Assembly (NCBI RefSeq): GCF_024453815.1
Contig: NZ_CP072934.1
Location: 248,001-312,000 of the forward strand
Direction: 5' to 3'
DNA from: Corynebacterium pseudogenitalium
Lineage (GTDB): Bacteria > Actinomycetota > Actinomycetes > Mycobacteriales > Mycobacteriaceae
Length of the DNA stretch: 64,000 bases
Each line of letters starts with the position of its first letter. Within the stretch, counting starts at the first letter, position 1. Below, piece after piece: positions 33,130 to 48,165 of the stretch. The notes below the pieces were generated by a model. That model made no database searches, was not told where the DNA came from, and saw nothing but the letters and a program-made list of their open reading frames with translations. The position numbers and the translations under genes were made by a program.

Positions 33130-34152
33130 CTACCGTCGACGCAGCGCCACCACGCCAGCCGCGACACCGGCAGCGAGCGCGCCGCCCGCCAGAGCGCCGA
33201 GGGCCGGGAGCATGTACCGGCGTAGGGAGCGGTAGTCCTCGATGGTCCAGCCTTGGCCTGTCGCGTAGCGGCGAAGTGCGCGGTCCGGGTTGATGGCGAC
33301 GGGGTTGCCGACCATGGAGAGCATCGGCAGGTCGTTGATGCTGTCGGAGTAGGCGGTGCACTTTGCCAGGTCGAGCTTCTGGATGGCAGCCAGTGCGGCG
33401 ACGGCGTGTTGCTTGCCGGGGCCGTGGAGGATGTCGCCGACGAGGCGGCCGGTGAACTTGCCGTCTTCCTCTTCGGCGACGGTGCCGAGGGCACCGGTGA
33501 AGCCGAGGCGTTCCGCGAGCGCCTGGCCGATTTGGACCGGGGTGGCGGAGACCAGCCAGACTTGTTGGCCTTGGGCGATGTGGCGGGACGCGGCGTCGAT
33601 AGTTGATTGGTAGGTCTTGTCGAGCATTTGGCGGTCGACGATTTCGGCGCAGAGCTCTTTGAGCTGCTCGACGTTCTTGCCTTTGACTACTTGGAGGGCC
33701 TGCTCGCGGCCTTTGGCGATGTCTTTGGCGCTTTCGGAGCCGGAGACGCGGTAGCGGATTTGCTTGGTCAGGGCGGGCAGGAGCTCGCGAAGGGTGATGA
33801 AGCGCTGCTTGGCCAAGCCTTTGGCCAGCAGGATGAGCGAGGAGCCCTGGATGAGGGTGTTGTCGATGTCGAAGAACGCGGCCGCCTCGGTGTCTTGGGG
33901 GACGTCGGGGTCGGGCTGGGTGATTTTCTCCCGGCCGGCGGTTTTGAAGGCGCCGCCGACGGAGTCGACGCCGGTGGCGAATTCTTCGATGCTGATGCCG
34001 AAGGTTTCTTCGATGGCGGCGGCTGCGGCGGCGTTACCGGCGGTGCGTTGGGATTCGGCGTCGAGAGGTGGGAGGGCAACTTCTTCGAGGAAGCGGCGAA
34101 GGTTGCCTTGGGTGAGTGACCATTGGGCCAGGAGTTCTTTGTGGTCGGACAT
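33130..34152 (-). CDS. HAD-IB family phosphatase-like protein (SerB1/Rv0505c type)
   Basis: The 340-residue product has a helical N-terminus of about 85 residues, the HAD motif FFDIDNTLIQGSS with Asp95 and Asp97, SATPVQIGQALA and YSDSINDLPML, then a C-terminal membrane segment. Substrate is unproven; Rv0505c relatives are annotated as phosphoserine phosphatases or lipid phosphatases. The ATG at 34152 is preferred over a GTG six codons upstream. Confidence 0.85.
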   Translation of the reverse strand: MSDHKELLAQWSLTQGNLRRFLEEVALPPLDAESQRTAGNAAAAAAIEETFGISIEEFATGVDSVGGAFKTAGREKITQPDPDVPQDTEAAAFFDIDNTLIQGSSLILLAKGLAKQRFITLRELLPALTKQIRYRVSGSESAKDIAKGREQALQVVKGKNVEQLKELCAEIVDRQMLDKTYQSTIDAASRHIAQGQQVWLVSATPVQIGQALAERLGFTGALGTVAEEEDGKFTGRLVGDILHGPGKQHAVAALAAIQKLDLAKCTAYSDSINDLPMLSMVGNPVAINPDRALRRYATGQGWTIEDYRSLRRYMLPALGALAGGALAAGVAAGVVALRRR

Positions 34153-34218
34153 TGCCAGCGAGCCTTTCACCGTGTGGCAGACGTGATAGCTTGTATCGTA
34201 AACAAGATTGGCGGAGAG

Positions 34219-34455
34219 ATGAAACAGGTTGAACTGATGGTGCGCGCGACCTGCGGGTCGTGCGAGCGGGTGGCTGCGCAGATCGCCCCGGTGGTCGAGC
34301 AGTGCGGCGCGCAGCTCACGCTTGTTGATGTCGACGCCTCTCCGTCGCTCAACGCCGAGTTCGGGGATCGCGTCCCGGTTGTGGTGATTGATGGGGACGA
34401 GTTCGCGTGTTGGGAAGTGGATAACGCGGACCTGGCCGAGGCGCTGTCAGAGTGA
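34219..34455 (+). CDS. glutaredoxin-like thioredoxin-fold protein
   Basis: The 78-residue protein has the redox pair CGSC (Cys12, Cys15) and a cis-proline motif RVPVVVIDGDEF, typical of the glutaredoxin/DUF836 fold. It lies 44 bases before hemA, as Rv0508 does in mycobacteria. It may protect a thiol in tetrapyrrole synthesis, but that is inference from position. Confidence 0.85.
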   Translation: MKQVELMVRATCGSCERVAAQIAPVVEQCGAQLTLVDVDASPSLNAEFGDRVPVVVIDGDEFACWEVDNADLAEALSE

Positions 34456-38596: not shown

Positions 38597-39607
38597 ATGA
38601 CTACATATCATCTTCCACGCCGTCCACGTCGCCTCCGCCAGAATCCTGCGATTCGGCAGCTCACCGCGGAGACGCGACTGGCTCCGGCCGATTTTATTTT
38701 GCCGTTGTTCGTGGCTGATGGCATCACCGAACGCCGAGAGATTGCCTCCATGCCGGGCGTGTACCAGCACACCACGGACACCCTGAAGGCGATCTGCCAC
38801 GAGGCACTCGAGGAGGGGATCCGCTGCGTGGACCTCTTCGGCGTGCCGCTCGACGAGGATAAGGACGCCACGGGTTCCGTCGCGTGGGACCCGGAGGGCA
38901 TCCTGAACCGCAACGTGTGTGCGCTGCGCGAGGAGTTCGGCGAGGACCTGCTGATTATGGCCGATACCTGCCTGGATGAGTTCACGGACCACGGGCACTG
39001 TGGTGTAGTGGGCGTCGATAAGTATGGCAATCAGGTGGTGGATAACGATGCAACCTTGGACCTCTACCGCGATATGGCGCTGTCGCAGGCTGCCGCGGGC
39101 GCGCACATCGTGAGCCCGTCGGGGATGATGGACGGGCAGATCGGTGTGATCCGCGAGGCACTCGACGCCGAGGGCTACCAGGACGTGGCCATCATGGCGT
39201 ACTCGGCGAAGTACGCGTCGAAGTTCTTCGGGCCGTTCCGCGACGCGGTCGGCTCCTCCCTGAAGGGCGACCGCCGCACGTACCAGCAGGACCCGGCGAA
39301 CGCGCGCGAGTCCCTGCTCGAGACCGAGCTCGATATTGAGGAAGGCGCGGATTTCGTCATGGTCAAGCCTGCGCTGCCGTACCTGGATGTGCTCAGCCGC
39401 GTGGCGGACATGTCGCCGGTGCCGGTGGCGGCGTACCAGGTTTCGGGCGAATACGCGATGATGGTGGCCGCTGGCCAAAACGGTTGGATCGATTTCGAGG
39501 CGACCATGATGGAGTCGCTGACCTCTATCAAGCGTGCTGGCGCGGACCAGATTTTGACGTACTACGCAATCGAGGGCGCGCGTGCGCTGAAGGAGCTTCA
39601 TGGCTAA
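38597..39607 (+). CDS. hemB: delta-aminolevulinic acid dehydratase
   Basis: The 336-residue enzyme shows [21 protein letters not shown], the Schiff-base lysines in MAYSAKYAS and [10 protein letters not shown], and YQVSGEYAM. It condenses two aminolevulinates to porphobilinogen. The stop lies eight bases inside the next gene. Confidence 0.96.
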
Positions 39608-40169
39608 CACACCTCCCGCAGCGCAGGCCCCGGCCCTGCCACCGAGACACCGGAAGGACGAGCCGACGCAGCAACAGCCCGAGGCGGTGCGCTATCTCCT
39701 CGGCGCGTGGGCAGTGATGATCCTCGGTGAGCTCCTGCACCAGATCCTCGCCGTGGTGGTGACGGTGCTCGACCCGGCTGCGCTGCGCGAGGCGGCGAAG
39801 CAGGCCGCGAAGAACCAGTCGGAGGCGCTGCCGGAGAACATGATGCAGGCGAGCATGTACGCCACGGTTGTGCTGATGGCGTTGCTGCAGCTGGGCATCA
39901 TCGTGGTGTTTTGCCTGGCGCTGCGCTCAGTGCAGCGCCGCGGAAAGTGGATGCTCAACGCCACGCGGGTGCTGCAGGTCTTCTCGGTCTTCTTCGCGGT
40001 GCGCGTGCTCACGCTCTTCTTGATGACGCCCGCTGCGACTAAAGTGCCGGTTGCGCTGTTCGCCGTCGACGGTGCGGTGCAGATCGTGGTCGGTGTGGCG
40101 GGAGCATTGGGGCTGTTCTATGCTTCCCGGAAGGAATCGCAGGACTATCTGCGTCCGGCTGAGCAGTAG
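39600..40169 (+). CDS. membrane protein of the hem cluster (Rv0513 position)
   Basis: The 189-residue protein starts inside hemB, has a Pro-rich polar N-terminus and four hydrophobic segments. Mycobacterial Rv0513 is also a small membrane protein after hemB. No motif indicates function. Confidence 0.8.
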
Positions 40170-40200: not shown

Positions 40201-42759
40201 ATGGCTGATAATGTGACGCGCTCAATTGACGACGCCCGCCTGGCGGCCAAGGACGCCGGGTTCGACCCGGACTCGCGCCACTCCGAGGACAGCAACGGCA
40301 ACCCGTTGCGCCCCCACGCTTCCTACGCGTTCGAGCTCGAGGGCCTGGAGGACGGCGCGCAGCTGCGCGACATCGAGGAGGCCCTCGAAGAGCTGCCAGG
40401 CGTGCAGGCGCGCCTGGTGTACCCGACGAAGATGGCGTGGGTGACCGCGCCGGACACCACGGCACCGCACACGATCGCCGAGGTGATGCAGCGCTTCGGG
40501 GTGGAGGTGCAGCTGACGGATTCGACGCTGCGCCGCCGCGCCCAGGGGCATTCGGTGGTGGATCACACGCTGCCGCGGCGTGGCACGCGCGGCATGTCCG
40601 GCCGGATGCGCCGGATGAAGGAACACGAGCAGCGCTCCCTGCGCACGGCGCGCGCGAGCGGGTTCGTGCGCACTGCCCGACGGCGCCGTGGCATGATGCG
40701 CGGCCAGGACGTGCTGTTTACCGCCCGCGACTTGGTCACGCCGCTTCGCATGTGGATCGCTATTGTGCTGAGCATCCCGGTCGTCCTGATGGCGTACGTG
40801 CCGCAGTTTCAGTTCCCGGGGTGGCAGTGGTGCTCGCTGGCGTTGTCCACGCCGGTGGTGCTGTGGTGCGCGTTCCCGTTCCACCGCGCGATGCTTGGTG
40901 GCGTGCGCCGCGGGATTTCCGCGCTGGACGGCGCGAGCTCGATCGCGATTTTGGCCGCTTGGCTGTGGTCGCTGGTCGCGGTGGTGCTGACGTCCGCTGG
41001 GCAGATCGGCTGGACTACCAGTAGTGGCTGGGTGCCGCACCAGATGGGCCACGACGTTGAGATCTTCTTCGAGGTCTCCTGCGCCGTGACCACGTTGTTG
41101 CTGGTGGGACGCTACTTCACCATGCGCGCTCGCCCCCGCCTCATGGAGGATTTGCAGGCCCGCAACCCTGATCCGGACGCGGTGTACAAGGTGGTGCGTC
41201 GTTCGCGGGCGGGCAACGTGACGGAGGAAGACTTCCCGGCAGTCGAGCTGAACAAGGGGGATGACGTCTACGTCCACGCGGGCGAGATCATCCCTGCCGA
41301 CGGCGAGGTGGTCGGCGGCTCTGGCGTGTTGAACCCCCAGATTATCGACGCCCGCGAGCCTTCCGAGGTGAAAGTCGGCTCAACGGTGCGCGCCGGGTCG
41401 GTGCTGCGCAGCGGCAAGATCAAGATGCGCGTGGAGCGCGTCGGACACACCACCCGCCTGGGCGCGGTGGAGCGCTGGGTGGACGCGGTGCTGCGCCACC
41501 AGAACGAGGCCACGTTGATGTCCACGCGCGCGGCGGGCCTGCTCATCCCGGCGGCCTATGCGCTGGCTATCTTAGATTTTGGGCTGTGGGTGCTGCTGAC
41601 CGGCAACTACAATGCTGGCTTTTCCACGGCGTTGGCCATCTTGGTGGTGGTGGCGCCGGTGGCGCTGGCGATTTCGCCTTCGCTGGCGATCCGCCTCGGC
41701 ATTGAGTCGGCGGTGCGAAACGGCATCCTGATCCGCGACGGCGAAACCTTCCGCGCGCTGGAGTCGACGGACACGGCCGTGTTCAACCGCGTGGGCACCC
41801 TTGTCAAGCCGCAGATGACGGTGGAGACCGTCACCGCCGAGCGCGGCGAAAGCCCGGAGATGGTGATGCGCGTGGCGGGTGCGCTGTCGGTGGAGTCCAA
41901 CCACCCGTCGGCACGCGCAATGGTGAAGGCGGCGCGTGAGGCGCGCGATGGGCGCACGAAGAGCGCCGATGTGCCGTCGTGGATCGAGATGAGCAACGAG
42001 GAAATCACGCCCGGCGGCGAGTTCCGCGGCCGCCTCACCTTGACCTACGGCGACGAGGACGAGGACCGCACCGAGTCCTTCGACGCCTGCCTGTGGCGCC
42101 CCACGAACCTGTCCCAGCTGCACGGCCGCCTCGCGATGGCCGCGACCGCCGGAGGCACCCCTGTAGTGGTGCGCTGGCGCGGCAAGGACCGCGGCGTGAT
42201 CACCCTCTACGACCCCGCGAAGGACGACGCCCACGAGGCCATCAACCGCCTGGAACAGATGGGCGTAGAGACGGTGATGCTCACCCGCGATACCTACCCG
42301 GTGGCCCGCCGCTTTGCCGACTTTTTGGGTATGTCCAACGTGCTCGCCGGCATTACCGCGCCGGACAAGCCGGGGGCGGTTCGCGCCATCCACACGAAGG
42401 GCGCCACGGTTGCCATGATCGGTGACGCCACCGCGCTTCCCACTATCAAGGTGGCGGACGTCGGCCTGCTCTACGCCACCGACGACATTATCGACGCCCA
42501 GTCCTCCACCATCGCCCGCGCCTGCAACGCCGTGCTGATCCGCGACGACGTCTCCGCCGTCCCGCAGCTCATCGCGCACGCGCGCCGCGTGTGCCACATC
42601 ATCGACTACAACATGATCTTCGCCTGGGCGTACAACTCCACCGCGATCGTGCTTGCCGCGATCGGCGTGCTGCCCCCGGTGGGGGCCACGCTGCTCATGC
42701 TCGGCAGCTCGCTCGTGATTGAGGCGCACTCCTCGCGGGCAAATCATTTTCCCACCTAA
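40201..42759 (+). CDS. P-type ATPase-like protein lacking all catalytic motifs
   Basis: The 852-residue protein has the layout of a heavy-metal (P1B) ATPase: HMA-like N-domain, membrane helices, actuator, phosphorylation and nucleotide domains. Every hallmark is altered: no CxxC in the N-domain (LEGLEDGAQL), actuator TGES replaced by AREPS (384-388), CPC replaced by SPS (492-494), phosphorylated DKTGT replaced by NRVGT with Asn529, TGDN replaced by TRDT (695-698) and GDGVND replaced by GDATAL (741-746). The HP motif (SNHPSA) remains. The frame is intact and codon use is normal, so this looks like a maintained pseudoenzyme. It lies between hemB and hemE, suggesting a non-pumping role connected to heme or metals. 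Confidence 0.85.
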   Translation: MADNVTRSIDDARLAAKDAGFDPDSRHSEDSNGNPLRPHASYAFELEGLEDGAQLRDIEEALEELPGVQARLVYPTKMAWVTAPDTTAPHTIAEVMQRFGVEVQLTDSTLRRRAQGHSVVDHTLPRRGTRGMSGRMRRMKEHEQRSLRTARASGFVRTARRRRGMMRGQDVLFTARDLVTPLRMWIAIVLSIPVVLMAYVPQFQFPGWQWCSLALSTPVVLWCAFPFHRAMLGGVRRGISALDGASSIAILAAWLWSLVAVVLTSAGQIGWTTSSGWVPHQMGHDVEIFFEVSCAVTTLLLVGRYFTMRARPRLMEDLQARNPDPDAVYKVVRRSRAGNVTEEDFPAVELNKGDDVYVHAGEIIPADGEVVGGSGVLNPQIIDAREPSEVKVGSTVRAGSVLRSGKIKMRVERVGHTTRLGAVERWVDAVLRHQNEATLMSTRAAGLLIPAAYALAILDFGLWVLLTGNYNAGFSTALAILVVVAPVALAISPSLAIRLGIESAVRNGILIRDGETFRALESTDTAVFNRVGTLVKPQMTVETVTAERGESPEMVMRVAGALSVESNHPSARAMVKAAREARDGRTKSADVPSWIEMSNEEITPGGEFRGRLTLTYGDEDEDRTESFDACLWRPTNLSQLHGRLAMAATAGGTPVVVRWRGKDRGVITLYDPAKDDAHEAINRLEQMGVETVMLTRDTYPVARRFADFLGMSNVLAGITAPDKPGAVRAIHTKGATVAMIGDATALPTIKVADVGLLYATDDIIDAQSSTIARACNAVLIRDDVSAVPQLIAHARRVCHIIDYNMIFAWAYNSTAIVLAAIGVLPPVGATLLMLGSSLVIEAHSSRANHFPT

Positions 42760-42786: not shown

Positions 42787-43833
42787 ATGACCAGACGCGA
42801 CCTTTCTTCTGCCCCGTTCATTGAGGCCGCCAACGGCCGCACGCCCTCACGCACCCCGGTGTGGTTCATGCGCCAGGCCGGGCGCTCGCTGCCGGAATAC
42901 CGCAAAGTCCGTGAAGGCATCTCCATGCTGGACTCCTGCTTCATACCGGAGCTCCTCGCCGAGATCACGATGCAGCCGGTGCGCCGCCACGACATGGATG
43001 CGGCGATTCTCTTTTCCGATATCGTCGTGCCGCTGAAAGCGGCGGGTATCGGCGTGGAGATCGTGCCGGGCCGCGGCCCAGTGATGGAGAAGGCGATTAC
43101 GACGAAAGAGGACGTCGATAATTTGCCGGTGCTGGACCACAACGTTGAGGAAGTGGCCAAGGGCATCGAGATGATTCTCGACGAGCTCACCGACACCCAG
43201 GCCCTGATCGGCTTTGTCGGCGCGCCGTTTACGCTGGCCAGCTACCTCATCGAGGGCGGGCCGAGCAAGAACCACGAGAAGACGAAGGCCATGATGCACG
43301 GCGACCCGGACACGTGGCACGCCCTGATGCGCCGCCTCGTGCCGACCATCAGCGCGTTCCTGCGCACGCAGGTCGACGCCGGCATCGACGCCATGCAGCT
43401 CTTCGACTCCTGGGCAGGCTTCCTCACCGAGGCCGACTACCGCGAGCACGTCCTGCCGTACTCCGCCGAGATCCTGAAGGAGGTCGAGGGTGTGATCCCG
43501 CGCATCCACTTCGGTGTGGCCACGGGTGAGCTGCTCGGCGCGATGTCGGAGGCGGGTTCCGAGGTGATGGGCGTCGACTGGCGCGTGCCGCTCGACGTCG
43601 CCGCGAAGCGCTTCGCGTCCCCGCGCGTGCTGCAGGGCAACCTCGACCCGGCGATGCTCTTCGCTGGCCCCGCCGTGGTGCAGGAGGAAGTGCGCCGCAT
43701 CAAGGCGGAGGCCGCCCGAGCTATCGACGCAGGCACCGCCACCGGCCACATCTTCAACCTCGGGCACGGCGTCTTGCCGACCACCGATGCAGGCGCCATC
43801 ACCGACGCTGTCGCAATGATCCACGAAGCATAA
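42787..43833 (+). CDS. hemE: uroporphyrinogen decarboxylase
   Basis: The 348-residue enzyme has the signature PVWFMRQAGRSLPEYR, FSDIVVPL, GFVGAPFTLASYLIEG and FNLGHGVLP. It makes coproporphyrinogen III. TAGGGT eight bases before the ATG suggests a leaderless start. Confidence 0.97.
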   Translation: MTRRDLSSAPFIEAANGRTPSRTPVWFMRQAGRSLPEYRKVREGISMLDSCFIPELLAEITMQPVRRHDMDAAILFSDIVVPLKAAGIGVEIVPGRGPVMEKAITTKEDVDNLPVLDHNVEEVAKGIEMILDELTDTQALIGFVGAPFTLASYLIEGGPSKNHEKTKAMMHGDPDTWHALMRRLVPTISAFLRTQVDAGIDAMQLFDSWAGFLTEADYREHVLPYSAEILKEVEGVIPRIHFGVATGELLGAMSEAGSEVMGVDWRVPLDVAAKRFASPRVLQGNLDPAMLFAGPAVVQEEVRRIKAEAARAIDAGTATGHIFNLGHGVLPTTDAGAITDAVAMIHEA

Positions 43834-43848
43834 CGAAGGAGATCCCCA

Positions 43849-45255
43849 TTGAATATCGCCATTGTCGGTGCAGGGCTTGCCGGGCTGACCGCAGCGTTTG
43901 AGCTGCGCAACTCCGGCCACACCGTCGACGTCTACGAGGGCAACGACCGCATCGGCGGCAAGCTGTACACCGTTGCGTTCGACGGCGGCCCCACCGATAT
44001 GGGGGCCGAAGCCTTCATCGCGCGCCGCCCGGAAGCGAAGCAGCTCGTCGAGGAGCTGGGTCTGCAGGACTCGCTGGTCTCCCCGTCGGGGATGCGCTCC
44101 CTGCTCTACGTCGACGGTGAGACCCGCGCCATGCCGGCTGGTGGCACGATGGGCATCCCTTCCACCTCCGAGCCGGTCGCGCACCTGGTCAGTGAGGAGA
44201 CCGCGCGGCGCATCGACACCGAGGCGCAGCGCGAAGGCTTCGAGTGGACCATCGGTGGCGACATGAGCGTCGGCGCCCTGGTCCGCGAGCGCTACGGCGA
44301 CGACGTCGTGGACAACATCGTCTCCTCCCTGCTTGGCGGGGTGTACTCCTGCACCGCCGACGACCTGGGCGTTCGCGCCACCGTGCCGCAGCTCGCCGCC
44401 GAGTTCGACCGCCTGGCCGCCGACGGCCCCGTGCACCTTTCCACGGCGGTCGCCAACTTGGAGGCGGCCCGGAAGAAGGCCGTTGCCGCGGCTGGGTCTT
44501 CTGATGCCTCGAAGCCTTCGAAACCGGCACCCATTTTCGCGTCCTTCCGCGAGGGCTACCAGGAACTCTACGAGGCACTCGCGGAGCAGTCCGGCGCAAA
44601 CATCTACGTTGACGCGTTCATCCCGTCCATCAGCCGCGAGGGCGAGGGGTTCCGCCTCAAGGGTGGCGAGGACACCGTCTACGACCGCGTGCTGTTGGCC
44701 ACCCCGGCGCCGACGACCGCGCTGCTGCTTCGCGACATCGCCCCCGAGGCCTCCGAAGCGCTTCGCTCCGTCGAGTTGGCGAACTCCGCCGTGGTGGGCC
44801 TGCGCTTCGCCACCGACGAGGGCCTGCCGGAGAACTCCGGCGTGCTGGTCAGCACCGATGCGAAGGACGTGCACGCCAAGGCGTTCACGCTTTCGTCGCG
44901 TAAGTGGCCGCACCTCGCCGAGCGCGGCGGCGCCCTTGTACGCGCCAGCTTCGGCCGCTACGGCGATAACATCGCCCTGACTGCCAGCGAGGACGACCTC
45001 GTGGACTGGGCCCTCGACGACCTGCAGACCATCACCGGCTTCGACGGCCGCGCCGCCGGCGTCGAGGAGATCTTCGTCCAGCGCTGGCTCGGCGGCCTCC
45101 CGCGTTACGACGCCACCCACCTGGCCACCGTGGCCAAGGTCCAGGACGCCCTCGCCGGTATCGACGGCGTTGGTGTGACAGGCGCCTGGGTTGCCGGGGT
45201 TGGGGTCCCGGCAGTGATCGGCAACGCGCGTCAGGCGGCGCAGGATCTCCTCTAG
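43849..45255 (+). CDS. hemY: HemY-type coproporphyrinogen III oxidase
   Basis: A TTG behind AAGGAG gives 468 residues. The FAD motif VGAGLAGLTAAFEL lies at the N-terminus and GVTGAWVAGVGVPAVIGNA at the C-terminus. In actinobacteria this family oxidises coproporphyrinogen III in the coproporphyrin-dependent heme route. The last four bases overlap the convergent transporter gene at a shared CTAG. Confidence 0.93.
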   Translation: MNIAIVGAGLAGLTAAFELRNSGHTVDVYEGNDRIGGKLYTVAFDGGPTDMGAEAFIARRPEAKQLVEELGLQDSLVSPSGMRSLLYVDGETRAMPAGGTMGIPSTSEPVAHLVSEETARRIDTEAQREGFEWTIGGDMSVGALVRERYGDDVVDNIVSSLLGGVYSCTADDLGVRATVPQLAAEFDRLAADGPVHLSTAVANLEAARKKAVAAAGSSDASKPSKPAPIFASFREGYQELYEALAEQSGANIYVDAFIPSISREGEGFRLKGGEDTVYDRVLLATPAPTTALLLRDIAPEASEALRSVELANSAVVGLRFATDEGLPENSGVLVSTDAKDVHAKAFTLSSRKWPHLAERGGALVRASFGRYGDNIALTASEDDLVDWALDDLQTITGFDGRAAGVEEIFVQRWLGGLPRYDATHLATVAKVQDALAGIDGVGVTGAWVAGVGVPAVIGNARQAAQDLL

Positions 45256-46641: not shown

Positions 46642-48165
46642 ATGAAGAAGCAGCTTGGACTCATGCTCGTTACTACCTGCTCAGCGGCCATGTTGGTGGC
46701 CCCGCAGGCCATGGCGGAGGACACCGCCCAGCTCACGGAAGCTCGCTGCGTGGCACTTGTCGACGCGGTGAAGGACGCCACCGCGAAGCAGCGCGATGCG
46801 CAGGACCGCGAGCGCGCCACGCAGCAGACGCTCGATGCGGCGCAGCGCGACGTCGCCGCCGCCCAGGAAGAACTCAAGGCAGCAAAGGGCATGGTCGCCG
46901 CCGCCCAACGCCTTCTTGACGACGCCACCACCGACCGCACCGCGAAACAGTCCGCAGTGCCCGCCGGCGTGACGGCGGAATCTGCACAGCAGGCGCTCGA
47001 GGACGCGAAGGCGCGGGCCGCCGAAGCAGCCGCCGCCCTCGAAGCCAGCAAGGCCGAGGCGCAACAGCAGTTCGACCGCGGCTCCCTCGGCTTCTTCGAA
47101 GCCATGGGCGCAACCGACGCCGTCGCCGAACTGAACACCGACTTCCGCTTCAAAGAAGAAGACCCGGTGGCGGGGCAGACGGGCTACCGCATCGCGGACG
47201 ACACCCACATCGGTGAGACCGACGACGCCACCCACCTGGACAACATGAAGACAGCCATCGGCTGGCTGCCCGAGGCCAATGAACTCCGCGAAAGCGACGG
47301 CCAGCCCGCCCTGCCCGTCTCCGACTTCCTGATGGCGCAGGCCCAGGTAAACGTGAACTGGTCGCACCAGCTGCCGCGCGGGCACTCGAAGAACGGATGG
47401 GACAACCTGTCCTGGAACTACGACAACCCGTTCAAGGGCTGGTTCCACGAGGAGCGCGTCGCGTACTTCGAGGCGATTGAGAAGGGCGAGAAGCCATTCG
47501 AGGCGGGCGCTGGCCACTACATGGCGATCGTCAACCCGGACATGCGCGCCACCGGCTTCGCCGTGAACACCAAAGCCTTCCGGTACCAGGGGTACCCGTG
47601 GCGTATTGCACACGCGCAGACCTTCGCCACCCACTGGATGAAGCAGGGCACTCCACTGTTCACCGTCGACGAGTACACCGAGCGCTTCAATACCTACTAC
47701 GACGGCCTCAAGCACGCCATCGAGTTTGGCGACGCCACCAAGCGTCAAACGCTCGAGGAGCGCGAAGGGGACGTCGACAAGGCGGAGCGGACCCTGGAAG
47801 CCGCACGCGCGCTGCGGGCCGCGGAGGAGCTCGTGGCAAAGCGTGAGCAGGAGCTTTCCGCCGCCAAGGAGGCGCAACCGGCCCGACAGACCGCAGCCGA
47901 GGAAGCGCTGACCGCGGCGAAGCAGGCGCAGGAGGATGCGGCTGCTGCCGCTGCGACCGCCAAGGCAGCCGCAGCCGAGGCCCGCGCAGCCACCGAACGC
48001 GCCGAAGCCGAATACAAGCCTGTGCAGGCGGAGTGCGCCACGCTGGCCGCCCCGGAGAAGGACGGCTCCTCCACCGGTGGCATCATCGCCGGCGTAGTGC
48101 TCGGGCTGCTGGCGATCGTCGGAATCGTGGTAGCCACCAACCCAGGAGTTCTCAATATGTTCTAG
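46642..48165 (+). CDS. surface protein: signal peptide, coiled coil, CAP-like domain, coiled coil, membrane anchor
   Basis: The 507-residue product has a signal peptide cut near APQAMA, a helical coiled coil (about 35-150), and a globular block (about 185-330) with ANELRESDGQPALPVSD, RGHSKNGW.NLSW and GAGHYMAIVNP resembling CAP/SCP and surface-exclusion proteins. A second Ala/Glu-rich coiled coil (360-470) and a C-terminal membrane helix follow. It probably projects from the envelope. TAATCT six bases before the ATG suggests a leaderless message. Confidence 0.82.
   Translation: MKKQLGLMLVTTCSAAMLVAPQAMAEDTAQLTEARCVALVDAVKDATAKQRDAQDRERATQQTLDAAQRDVAAAQEELKAAKGMVAAAQRLLDDATTDRTAKQSAVPAGVTAESAQQALEDAKARAAEAAAALEASKAEAQQQFDRGSLGFFEAMGATDAVAELNTDFRFKEEDPVAGQTGYRIADDTHIGETDDATHLDNMKTAIGWLPEANELRESDGQPALPVSDFLMAQAQVNVNWSHQLPRGHSKNGWDNLSWNYDNPFKGWFHEERVAYFEAIEKGEKPFEAGAGHYMAIVNPDMRATGFAVNTKAFRYQGYPWRIAHAQTFATHWMKQGTPLFTVDEYTERFNTYYDGLKHAIEFGDATKRQTLEEREGDVDKAERTLEAARALRAAEELVAKREQELSAAKEAQPARQTAAEEALTAAKQAQEDAAAAAATAKAAAAEARAATERAEAEYKPVQAECATLAAPEKDGSSTGGIIAGVVLGLLAIVGIVVATNPGVLNMF

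Follow-up and report, generated by a model that had tools for sequence, protein, structure and literature searches.

A P1B-type pseudo-ATPase retained in the heme gene cluster of Corynebacterium

The heme gene cluster of Corynebacterium pseudogenitalium contains an intact gene for a P1B-type (CopA-like) ATPase that lacks both the residues of the known P-type cycle and those of the copper path. The 852-residue protein, named PATP here (40201..42759 on the + strand of the window, that is, the whole stretch of 64,000 nucleotides analysed), keeps an intact predicted fold and evolves under purifying selection. The same replacement residues are fixed among its orthologues, and the gene is linked to hemB on one side and to hemE or hemL on the other. 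PATP is therefore a pseudoenzyme under selection. We consider it very probable that it is functional without being a pump, and its task probably lies in heme synthesis and involves no pumping.

The phosphorylated aspartate is the defining feature of P-type ATPases. A bacterial branch without this residue, in which new residues have been fixed and which is kept in a heme operon, would show what the P-type fold can be used for without turnover. In Corynebacterium, which has industrial uses and includes species that live on humans, PATP is a specific candidate for the part that the membrane plays in controlling heme synthesis, and a gene that many entries of the genus annotate as a heavy-metal or copper pump probably pumps no copper.

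A CopA-like ATPase without its catalytic motifs

The open reading frame starts with ATG and runs over 852 codons with zero internal stops, as the initial annotation had described. Its codon use, also said to resemble that of the neighbours, correlates at 0.955 (RSCU) with that of seven pooled hem genes (GC3 0.891), the three antisense frames giving 0.11-0.71 in the same comparison. Furthermore, a protein 100% identical to PATP is encoded in Corynebacterium sp. NML98-0116, which rules out a sequencing or annotation artefact. Two Pfam families score over their cut-offs, E1-E2_ATPase (residues 334-506) and HAD Hydrolase (residues 528-743), and the heavy-metal P-type ATPase family TIGR01525 matches residues 247-845 with a score of 271.5, below its cut-off of 346.25. 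Copper ATPases were the top-scoring solved sequences. With homology extending across the A, P and N domains and the P1B helices, PATP is by descent a P1B-type, CopA-like ATPase. Among 120 orthologues and relatives, most of the named entries carry the label heavy metal translocating P-type ATPase; some are annotated as copper-exporting ATPase (copper or metal labels include P0004, P0006 and P0084), and some as HAD hydrolase only. Two P-type ATPases with DKTGT are encoded elsewhere in the genome of the window. The third P-type ATPase of this genome when PATP is counted, L009 (G000:C1:882915-883448), has DKTGT, TGES and GDGIND and no CPC.

The motifs were called from an alignment with LpCopA (3rfu) and 17 CopA-like proteins, and followed in 159 orthologues, namely that of the window and 158 others (the omitted loci were the duplicate L004, L011, which is the window itself, and L198, whose sequence was too short). 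The phosphorylated Asp426 of LpCopA, which is Asp in 17/17 CopA-like proteins, corresponds to Asn529 of PATP and is Asn in 159/159 orthologues. In the former DKTGT motif, now N529-R-V-G-T (41785..41799), the catalytic lysine has become R530 and the first threonine V531, and N, R and G are invariant. The TGD motif has become T695-R696-D697 within T695-R696-D697-T-Y699 (42283..42297), where R696, D697 and Y699 are present in all 159, and GDGVND now reads G741-D742-A-T-A-L (42421..42438). In the actuator loop, TGE is replaced by D383-A384-R385, the former TGES being DARE (383-386; 41347..41358), which drifts among orthologues.

These alignments bear out the losses of the aspartate, TGES, TGDN and GDGVND that had first been read from the window, and correct two others. 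The SPS proposed in place of CPC sits a few residues beyond the true position, which is A485-P486-V487 in M4 (41653..41661). The loss of a CxxC is real; it belongs, however, to the N-terminal HMA domain (D51..Q54) and not to the N-domain. In addition, the cytoplasmic copper-entry ligands of LpCopA, Met148, Glu205 and Asp337 (PMC11213822), are L242, T307 and T442 in PATP.

Within the family the losses are nearly complete. The ancestral Asp and Lys of DKTGT, Asn and Asp of GDGxND and Gly of TGD occur in 0/159 orthologues, as do both HMA cysteines and each of the three entry ligands. GDGxND as a whole is likewise absent from all 159, its GD portion being mostly retained. The first CPC cysteine persists in one orthologue (L121) and the second in none; the Thr of DKTGT persists in one (L051). 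Six orthologues have a Glu in the TGE column, and a [TS]GE[SP] motif was found in the actuator loop of none of the 159 aligned orthologues. Judged from these residues, PATP has neither the features of a P1B-type enzyme (DKTGT Asp, TGE(S) and GDGxND) nor those of a P1B-1 copper pump (CPC, Met/Glu/Asp entry ligands and HMA CxxC).

The earlier statement that every catalytic motif had been lost holds for the motifs, but part of the active site survives: D697, K723 (42367..42369; retained in 158/159), G741-D742, the N-domain His568 and, in the membrane, Tyr811-Asn812 are retained, together with Met833 and Ser837. The mostly retained residues of the ATP/phosphate site (D697, K723, G741-D742 and His568) are those that an active pump with a different nucleophile or with migrated catalytic residues might use. 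However, no orthologue retains the nucleophile, the catalytic lysine or the Asn and Asp of GDGxND, the DKTGT threonine survives in a single one, and the six actuator glutamates lie outside any [TS]GE[SP] motif; pumping by such alternative chemistry appears very improbable.

The domains of the P1B family are present in the predicted model, with additions. An N-terminal helix (residues 2-18; 40204..40254) with the consensus AIxxAxxAAxxAG lies outside the P1B domains; A12, A15, A16 and G20 in this region are near-invariant in 90 sequences. The HMA-like domain (residues 39-105; 40315..40515) is predicted as beta-alpha-beta-beta-alpha-beta without CxxC, and the Pfam HMA family gave a weak match only, in 2/25 family members (best E 0.014). 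It is followed by a helix (residues 107-121; 40519..40563) with a conserved LTDSxLRRR, whose R112 is found in 158/159 orthologues and whose end is modelled with low confidence. According to the alignment and the model, the transmembrane helices MA, MB, M1 and M2 occupy residues 181-310 (40741..41130) and M5-M6 residues 786-848 (42556..42744). The actuator domain spans residues 328-413 (41182..41439; Pfam and model) and the nucleotide-binding domain residues 546-660 (41836..42180; alignments and model). In the latter, the His568 of the HP motif is retained in 149/159, GxG is gone, and a new W632 (156/159) adjoins R633.

In the membrane part, an outward-side set of residues partially persists: position 291, equivalent to E189, is E or D in 159/159, M833 is retained in 154, and three residues past position 291 a new cysteine, Cys294 in M2 (41080..41082), is found in all 159 pseudo-ATPases, where 16/17 CopA-like proteins have Ala. 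Y811 and N812 are retained in 158 and 155 orthologues, S837 of M6 in 139, and a new E841 appears in 148. Constraint on these membrane residues, and on P486 (159/159), could indicate an ATP-independent carrier or channel, in which the membrane part passes a metal, a porphyrin precursor or heme down its gradient and is gated by the cytoplasmic domains. Since the entry ligands are lost in all orthologues and the CPC cysteines in 158/159 (ligand roles in PMC11213822), the inner copper gate is gone, and we regard this reading as unlikely. Slightly less likely still is that PATP acts solely as a receptor for extracellular or membrane metal or heme, signalling to the heme enzymes through its A, P and N domains. 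The persistence of E/D291 and M833 with the invariant C294 adjoining, and cytoplasmic domains that are complete in the predicted model, would suit such a receptor; against it, the HMA cysteines are lost throughout, and the conserved His/Cys positions that stood out were His228, His568 and Cys294. Sensing of copper or metal in the ancestral manner, a role close to one initially suggested, is disfavoured by the joint loss of HMA cysteines, entry ligands and, in 158/159, CPC cysteines. The other roles initially suggested, membrane scaffold or heme sensor, may still apply.

Conservation, selection and origin

Among the positions that are invariant in the 159 orthologues are N529, R530, G532, R633, R664, R696, D697, Y699, P486, L242, C294, W426 and H228. 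The presence of N529, R530 and R696 in all of them argues that the motif replacements are not due to chance. In a second alignment of 90 protein-database sequences, which overlaps the first in species, N529, R530, R696, D697 and K723 occur in 90/90. The commonest residue has a mean frequency of 0.94 across residues 528-534 and of 0.90 across residues 693-703; the corresponding values are 0.54-0.65 in whole domains, 0.64 in the GDGVND region and 0.40 in the former TGES loop. Thus, constraint acts on the phosphorylation pocket and not on the dephosphorylation motif. Among the positions that do not vary in the 17 CopA-like proteins, the pseudo-ATPases keep 59 and have fixed a replacement at 18; another 87 drift, and 77 show an intermediate pattern. 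From this pattern it appears that the phosphorylation chemistry was lost and a working P-domain pocket retained, which may bind something or lock the domains together; the conserved Arg/Asn pocket may also be structural and bind nothing.

Selection was estimated from Nei-Gojobori dN/dS ratios, which were 0.016-0.163 in 15 of 16 hand-chosen pairs of orthologues and 0.331 in the remaining, highly diverged pair (dS 1.2); the frames were taken from stop to stop, and some carry in-frame bases 5' of the start, which would push the ratio upward. For the close pair L011/L014, eight windows of 100 codons gave dN of 0.009-0.027 and dS of 0.24-0.38, with a low ratio in each. Such values are far from the ratio near 1 that would have argued against function. 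No homologue with an intact DKTGT, and hence no intermediate form at the hem locus, was found among the 159 aligned orthologues. Together with the absence of the DKTGT aspartate throughout, these ratios strongly support the original proposal of a repurposed pseudo-transporter.

The gene was found in 158 of the 201 Corynebacterium genomes searched. The 150 best matches of this search, down to E 1.9e-177, were taken; in the other 51 genomes the stretch from hemB onward was read, which gave eight more, including L198, where the gene is truncated at the end of its contig. Of the 43 remaining genomes, one is unscorable owing to a run of N between M189 and hemE (L187, genome G195); in the others, absence refers to the hemB region and to the genome-wide search, of which lesser matches were not read singly. 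The motif losses themselves, and nothing else, would suggest a decaying pseudogene or an annotation artefact; the occurrence in 158/201 genomes, the intact frames, the low dN/dS and the identical replacement residues rule out a recent pseudogene and leave this explanation refuted, with a practically negligible probability.

In a tree of HemB, HemE and HemY covering 189 of 202 loci, parsimony with a midpoint root gave presence of PATP as the root state, with seven changes. Two of these fall on the unscorable L187 and on L169, which is a short piece from a contig end in a genome that carries the gene on another contig. A single loss spans a clade of 35 genomes (support 0.999) in which hemB, M189 and hemE are still present at the locus; PATP is therefore dispensable in some species.

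Outside the genus, no orthologue was found at E <= 1e-97 among 394 genomes from 137 genera of the class, with two candidates scored per genome; the two matches at this cut-off both belong to the genus of the window. Similarly, a search of 251 genomes from 31 genera of the family (three candidates per genome) gave nothing outside the genus better than 2e-92 (34% identity). Both negative results hold for the E cut-offs used, beyond which more distant relatives would be missed. The 14 best-scoring outgroup loci of the family search, the loci of Flaviflexus and Cellulomonadaceae and the window genome's own CopA all have intact DKTGT, CPC, TGES, TGD and GDG[VI]ND; L007 (Acidipropionibacterium), whose frame is disrupted past a visible DKTGT, was left out of the comparisons. 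In a tree of 29 pseudo-ATPases (that of the window and 28 taken at random) and 18 other P-type ATPases, a branch with support 100 separated the pseudo-ATPases from the others, with a stem of 1.48 changes per column, as estimated by a quick method that warns of long branches.

The heme locus

In the window, PATP lies in a same-strand run of hemA, hemC, hemD, hemB, M189, PATP, hemE and hemY. The names hemB, hemC, hemD, hemE and hemY are assigned from the translations, hemA having been checked against Pfam. On the + strand, hemB (38597..39607) is followed by the reading frame of M189 (39600..40169), a hydrophobic protein of 189 residues which has no Pfam or NCBIfam match and which, by its sequence, is probably embedded in the membrane. 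M189 is separated from PATP by 31 bp; hemE (42787..43833) begins 27 bp past PATP, and hemY (43849..45255) 15 bp past hemE. Two further genes near the cluster were recorded. A small glutaredoxin-like (DUF836) protein is encoded directly upstream of hemA (34123-34455). At 46642-48165, a 507-residue protein weakly matches the CAP domain (E 0.0005); parts of it are rich in Ala, Glu and Lys, and it has a hydrophobic stretch at its C-terminus.

Linkage was followed in 160 loci, 158 from the genus search with L213 and L224 from the family search. Within the fetched flank, hemB lies upstream of PATP in 151/160 and M189 in seven more (158/160 combined); when the eight loci found by way of hemB are excluded, the unbiased count for hemB is 143/152. 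The first heme gene 3' of PATP is hemE in 103 loci, hemL in 46 and hemY in two, a total of 151/160; of the nine loci with none, three (L042, L174 and L198) end within 333 bases. The gap between PATP and hemE has a median of 48 bp and reaches 1534 bp (n=102). The downstream partner varies by lineage yet remains a heme gene, hemL standing in place of hemE in part of the genus (for example L160, L128, L147, L142 and L209). The conserved linkage, which survives this swap, upholds the suggested connection with the heme genes, although shared regulation by itself could explain the synteny.

A second small hydrophobic protein of about 180 residues, S180, often with a DYNR motif, is encoded between M189 and PATP in many loci (e.g. 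L046:1484-1969) and is missing from the window; it was matched by tblastn in 89/158 loci with the PATP gene and in 36/44 loci without it. The charged C-terminal tail of M189 has a median of 66 residues in loci without PATP versus 24 in those with it (n=41 and 125), the long and highly charged tail occurring mainly in one clade (relatives L161-L212). Compensation of PATP loss by this tail was considered and rejected, most losses outside the large clade having no long tail (L165/L166, 16 residues; L205, 12; L210, 27); the tails of 76-79 residues and similar sequence in L191/L193 leave it as a lead only.

In Corynebacterium glutamicum, the PATP gene is presumably one of cg0513-cg0515. The heme regulator HrrA of this species binds at hemE (cg0516) and hemA (PMC7337898), so that the hemE/hemA region is heme-regulated there. 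Copper induces hemL and cytochrome c genes (PMC3140484); in the main text of that report, hemL (cg0518) and cg0519 are the only cg051x genes named.

A proposed role and related systems

The following scheme would account for these observations. A CopA-type copper ATPase would have joined the heme operon in the ancestor of most or all Corynebacterium, would then have lost phosphorylation and copper transport, and would have persisted in the membrane with a part in heme synthesis that involves no pumping. PATP, with M189 and S180 encoded beside hemB, may form a platform in the membrane on which heme enzymes are docked or held back, beginning with HemB and followed by HemE or HemL. The pocket rebuilt in the P-domain, which would comprise N529, R530, R664, R696, D697, Y699 and K723 with R633 of the N-domain, might bind an anion, for instance a nucleotide without Mg or the carboxylate of a tetrapyrrole, or, alternatively, might be a fixed interdomain latch; its state would set that of the platform without turnover.

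We give this platform or regulator role, with its heme enzymes, M189, S180 and anion pocket or latch, an even chance. It is favoured because the pocket residues are present in all 159 orthologues (K723 in 158) while the TGES loop drifts, dN/dS is low, the hem synteny is conserved and the same-strand spacing in the window is tight. Furthermore, the pseudo-ATPases form one group on a long stem, two P-type ATPases with DKTGT sit elsewhere in the genome, and the copper ATPases reported in C. glutamicum are CopB and CtpV, both termed putative (PMC3140484). Its loss in the clade of 35 genomes counts against this role, as do the chances that the synteny is due to co-regulation and that the pocket is purely structural. 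More tentatively, and somewhat short of even, PATP may represent a family of bacterial pseudo-P-type ATPases, widespread in Corynebacterium, in which the pocket was rebuilt as a fixed, basic ligand-binding switch (Asp to Asn, Lys to Arg, TGD to RDxY), turning a copper pump into a membrane-embedded allosteric controller or scaffold of tetrapyrrole synthesis.

A search of the open-licence PubMed Central literature for the PATP gene or for an inactive P-type ATPase gave no report of this gene, and a term search of a review of P-type ATPases (PMC10654040) found no mention of inactive members. Three known systems can be compared. The P1B-1 copper ATPase CopA (LpCopA, 3rfu and 4bbj; AfCopA, 7r0g) has the domain order and fold of the PATP model, with an HMA-like domain, helices MA, MB and M1-M6, and A, P and N domains; the model superimposes on AfCopA 7r0g over 613 residues at 3.3 A. 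His568, the YN of M5 and the Met/Ser of M6 are mostly kept. Unlike CopA, PATP has no DKTGT, TGES, CPC, GDGxND, CxxC or entry ligands, its model shows extra N-terminal and linker helices, and its gene lies among heme genes.

Human TMEM94 (ERMA) resembles PATP in having a P-type-like fold without TGES, and a structural paper reports no phosphorylation cycle and no detectable ATPase activity (PMC12134183); it is the nearest reported P-type-like protein without a phosphorylation cycle in the sources consulted. Its status is disputed, a 2026 paper presenting it as an ER Mg ATPase (PMC13322241). In contrast to PATP, TMEM94 is eukaryotic, has ten membrane helices and, by description, keeps an Asp (D417) at the proposed site. 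For the platform role of PATP, HemX of S. aureus and other bacteria offers a precedent: this integral membrane protein holds glutamyl-tRNA reductase at a low level and thereby limits heme synthesis, and its gene is frequently located near heme genes (PMC5801465). Its likeness to PATP would be one of functional analogy, in the control of heme synthesis from the membrane.
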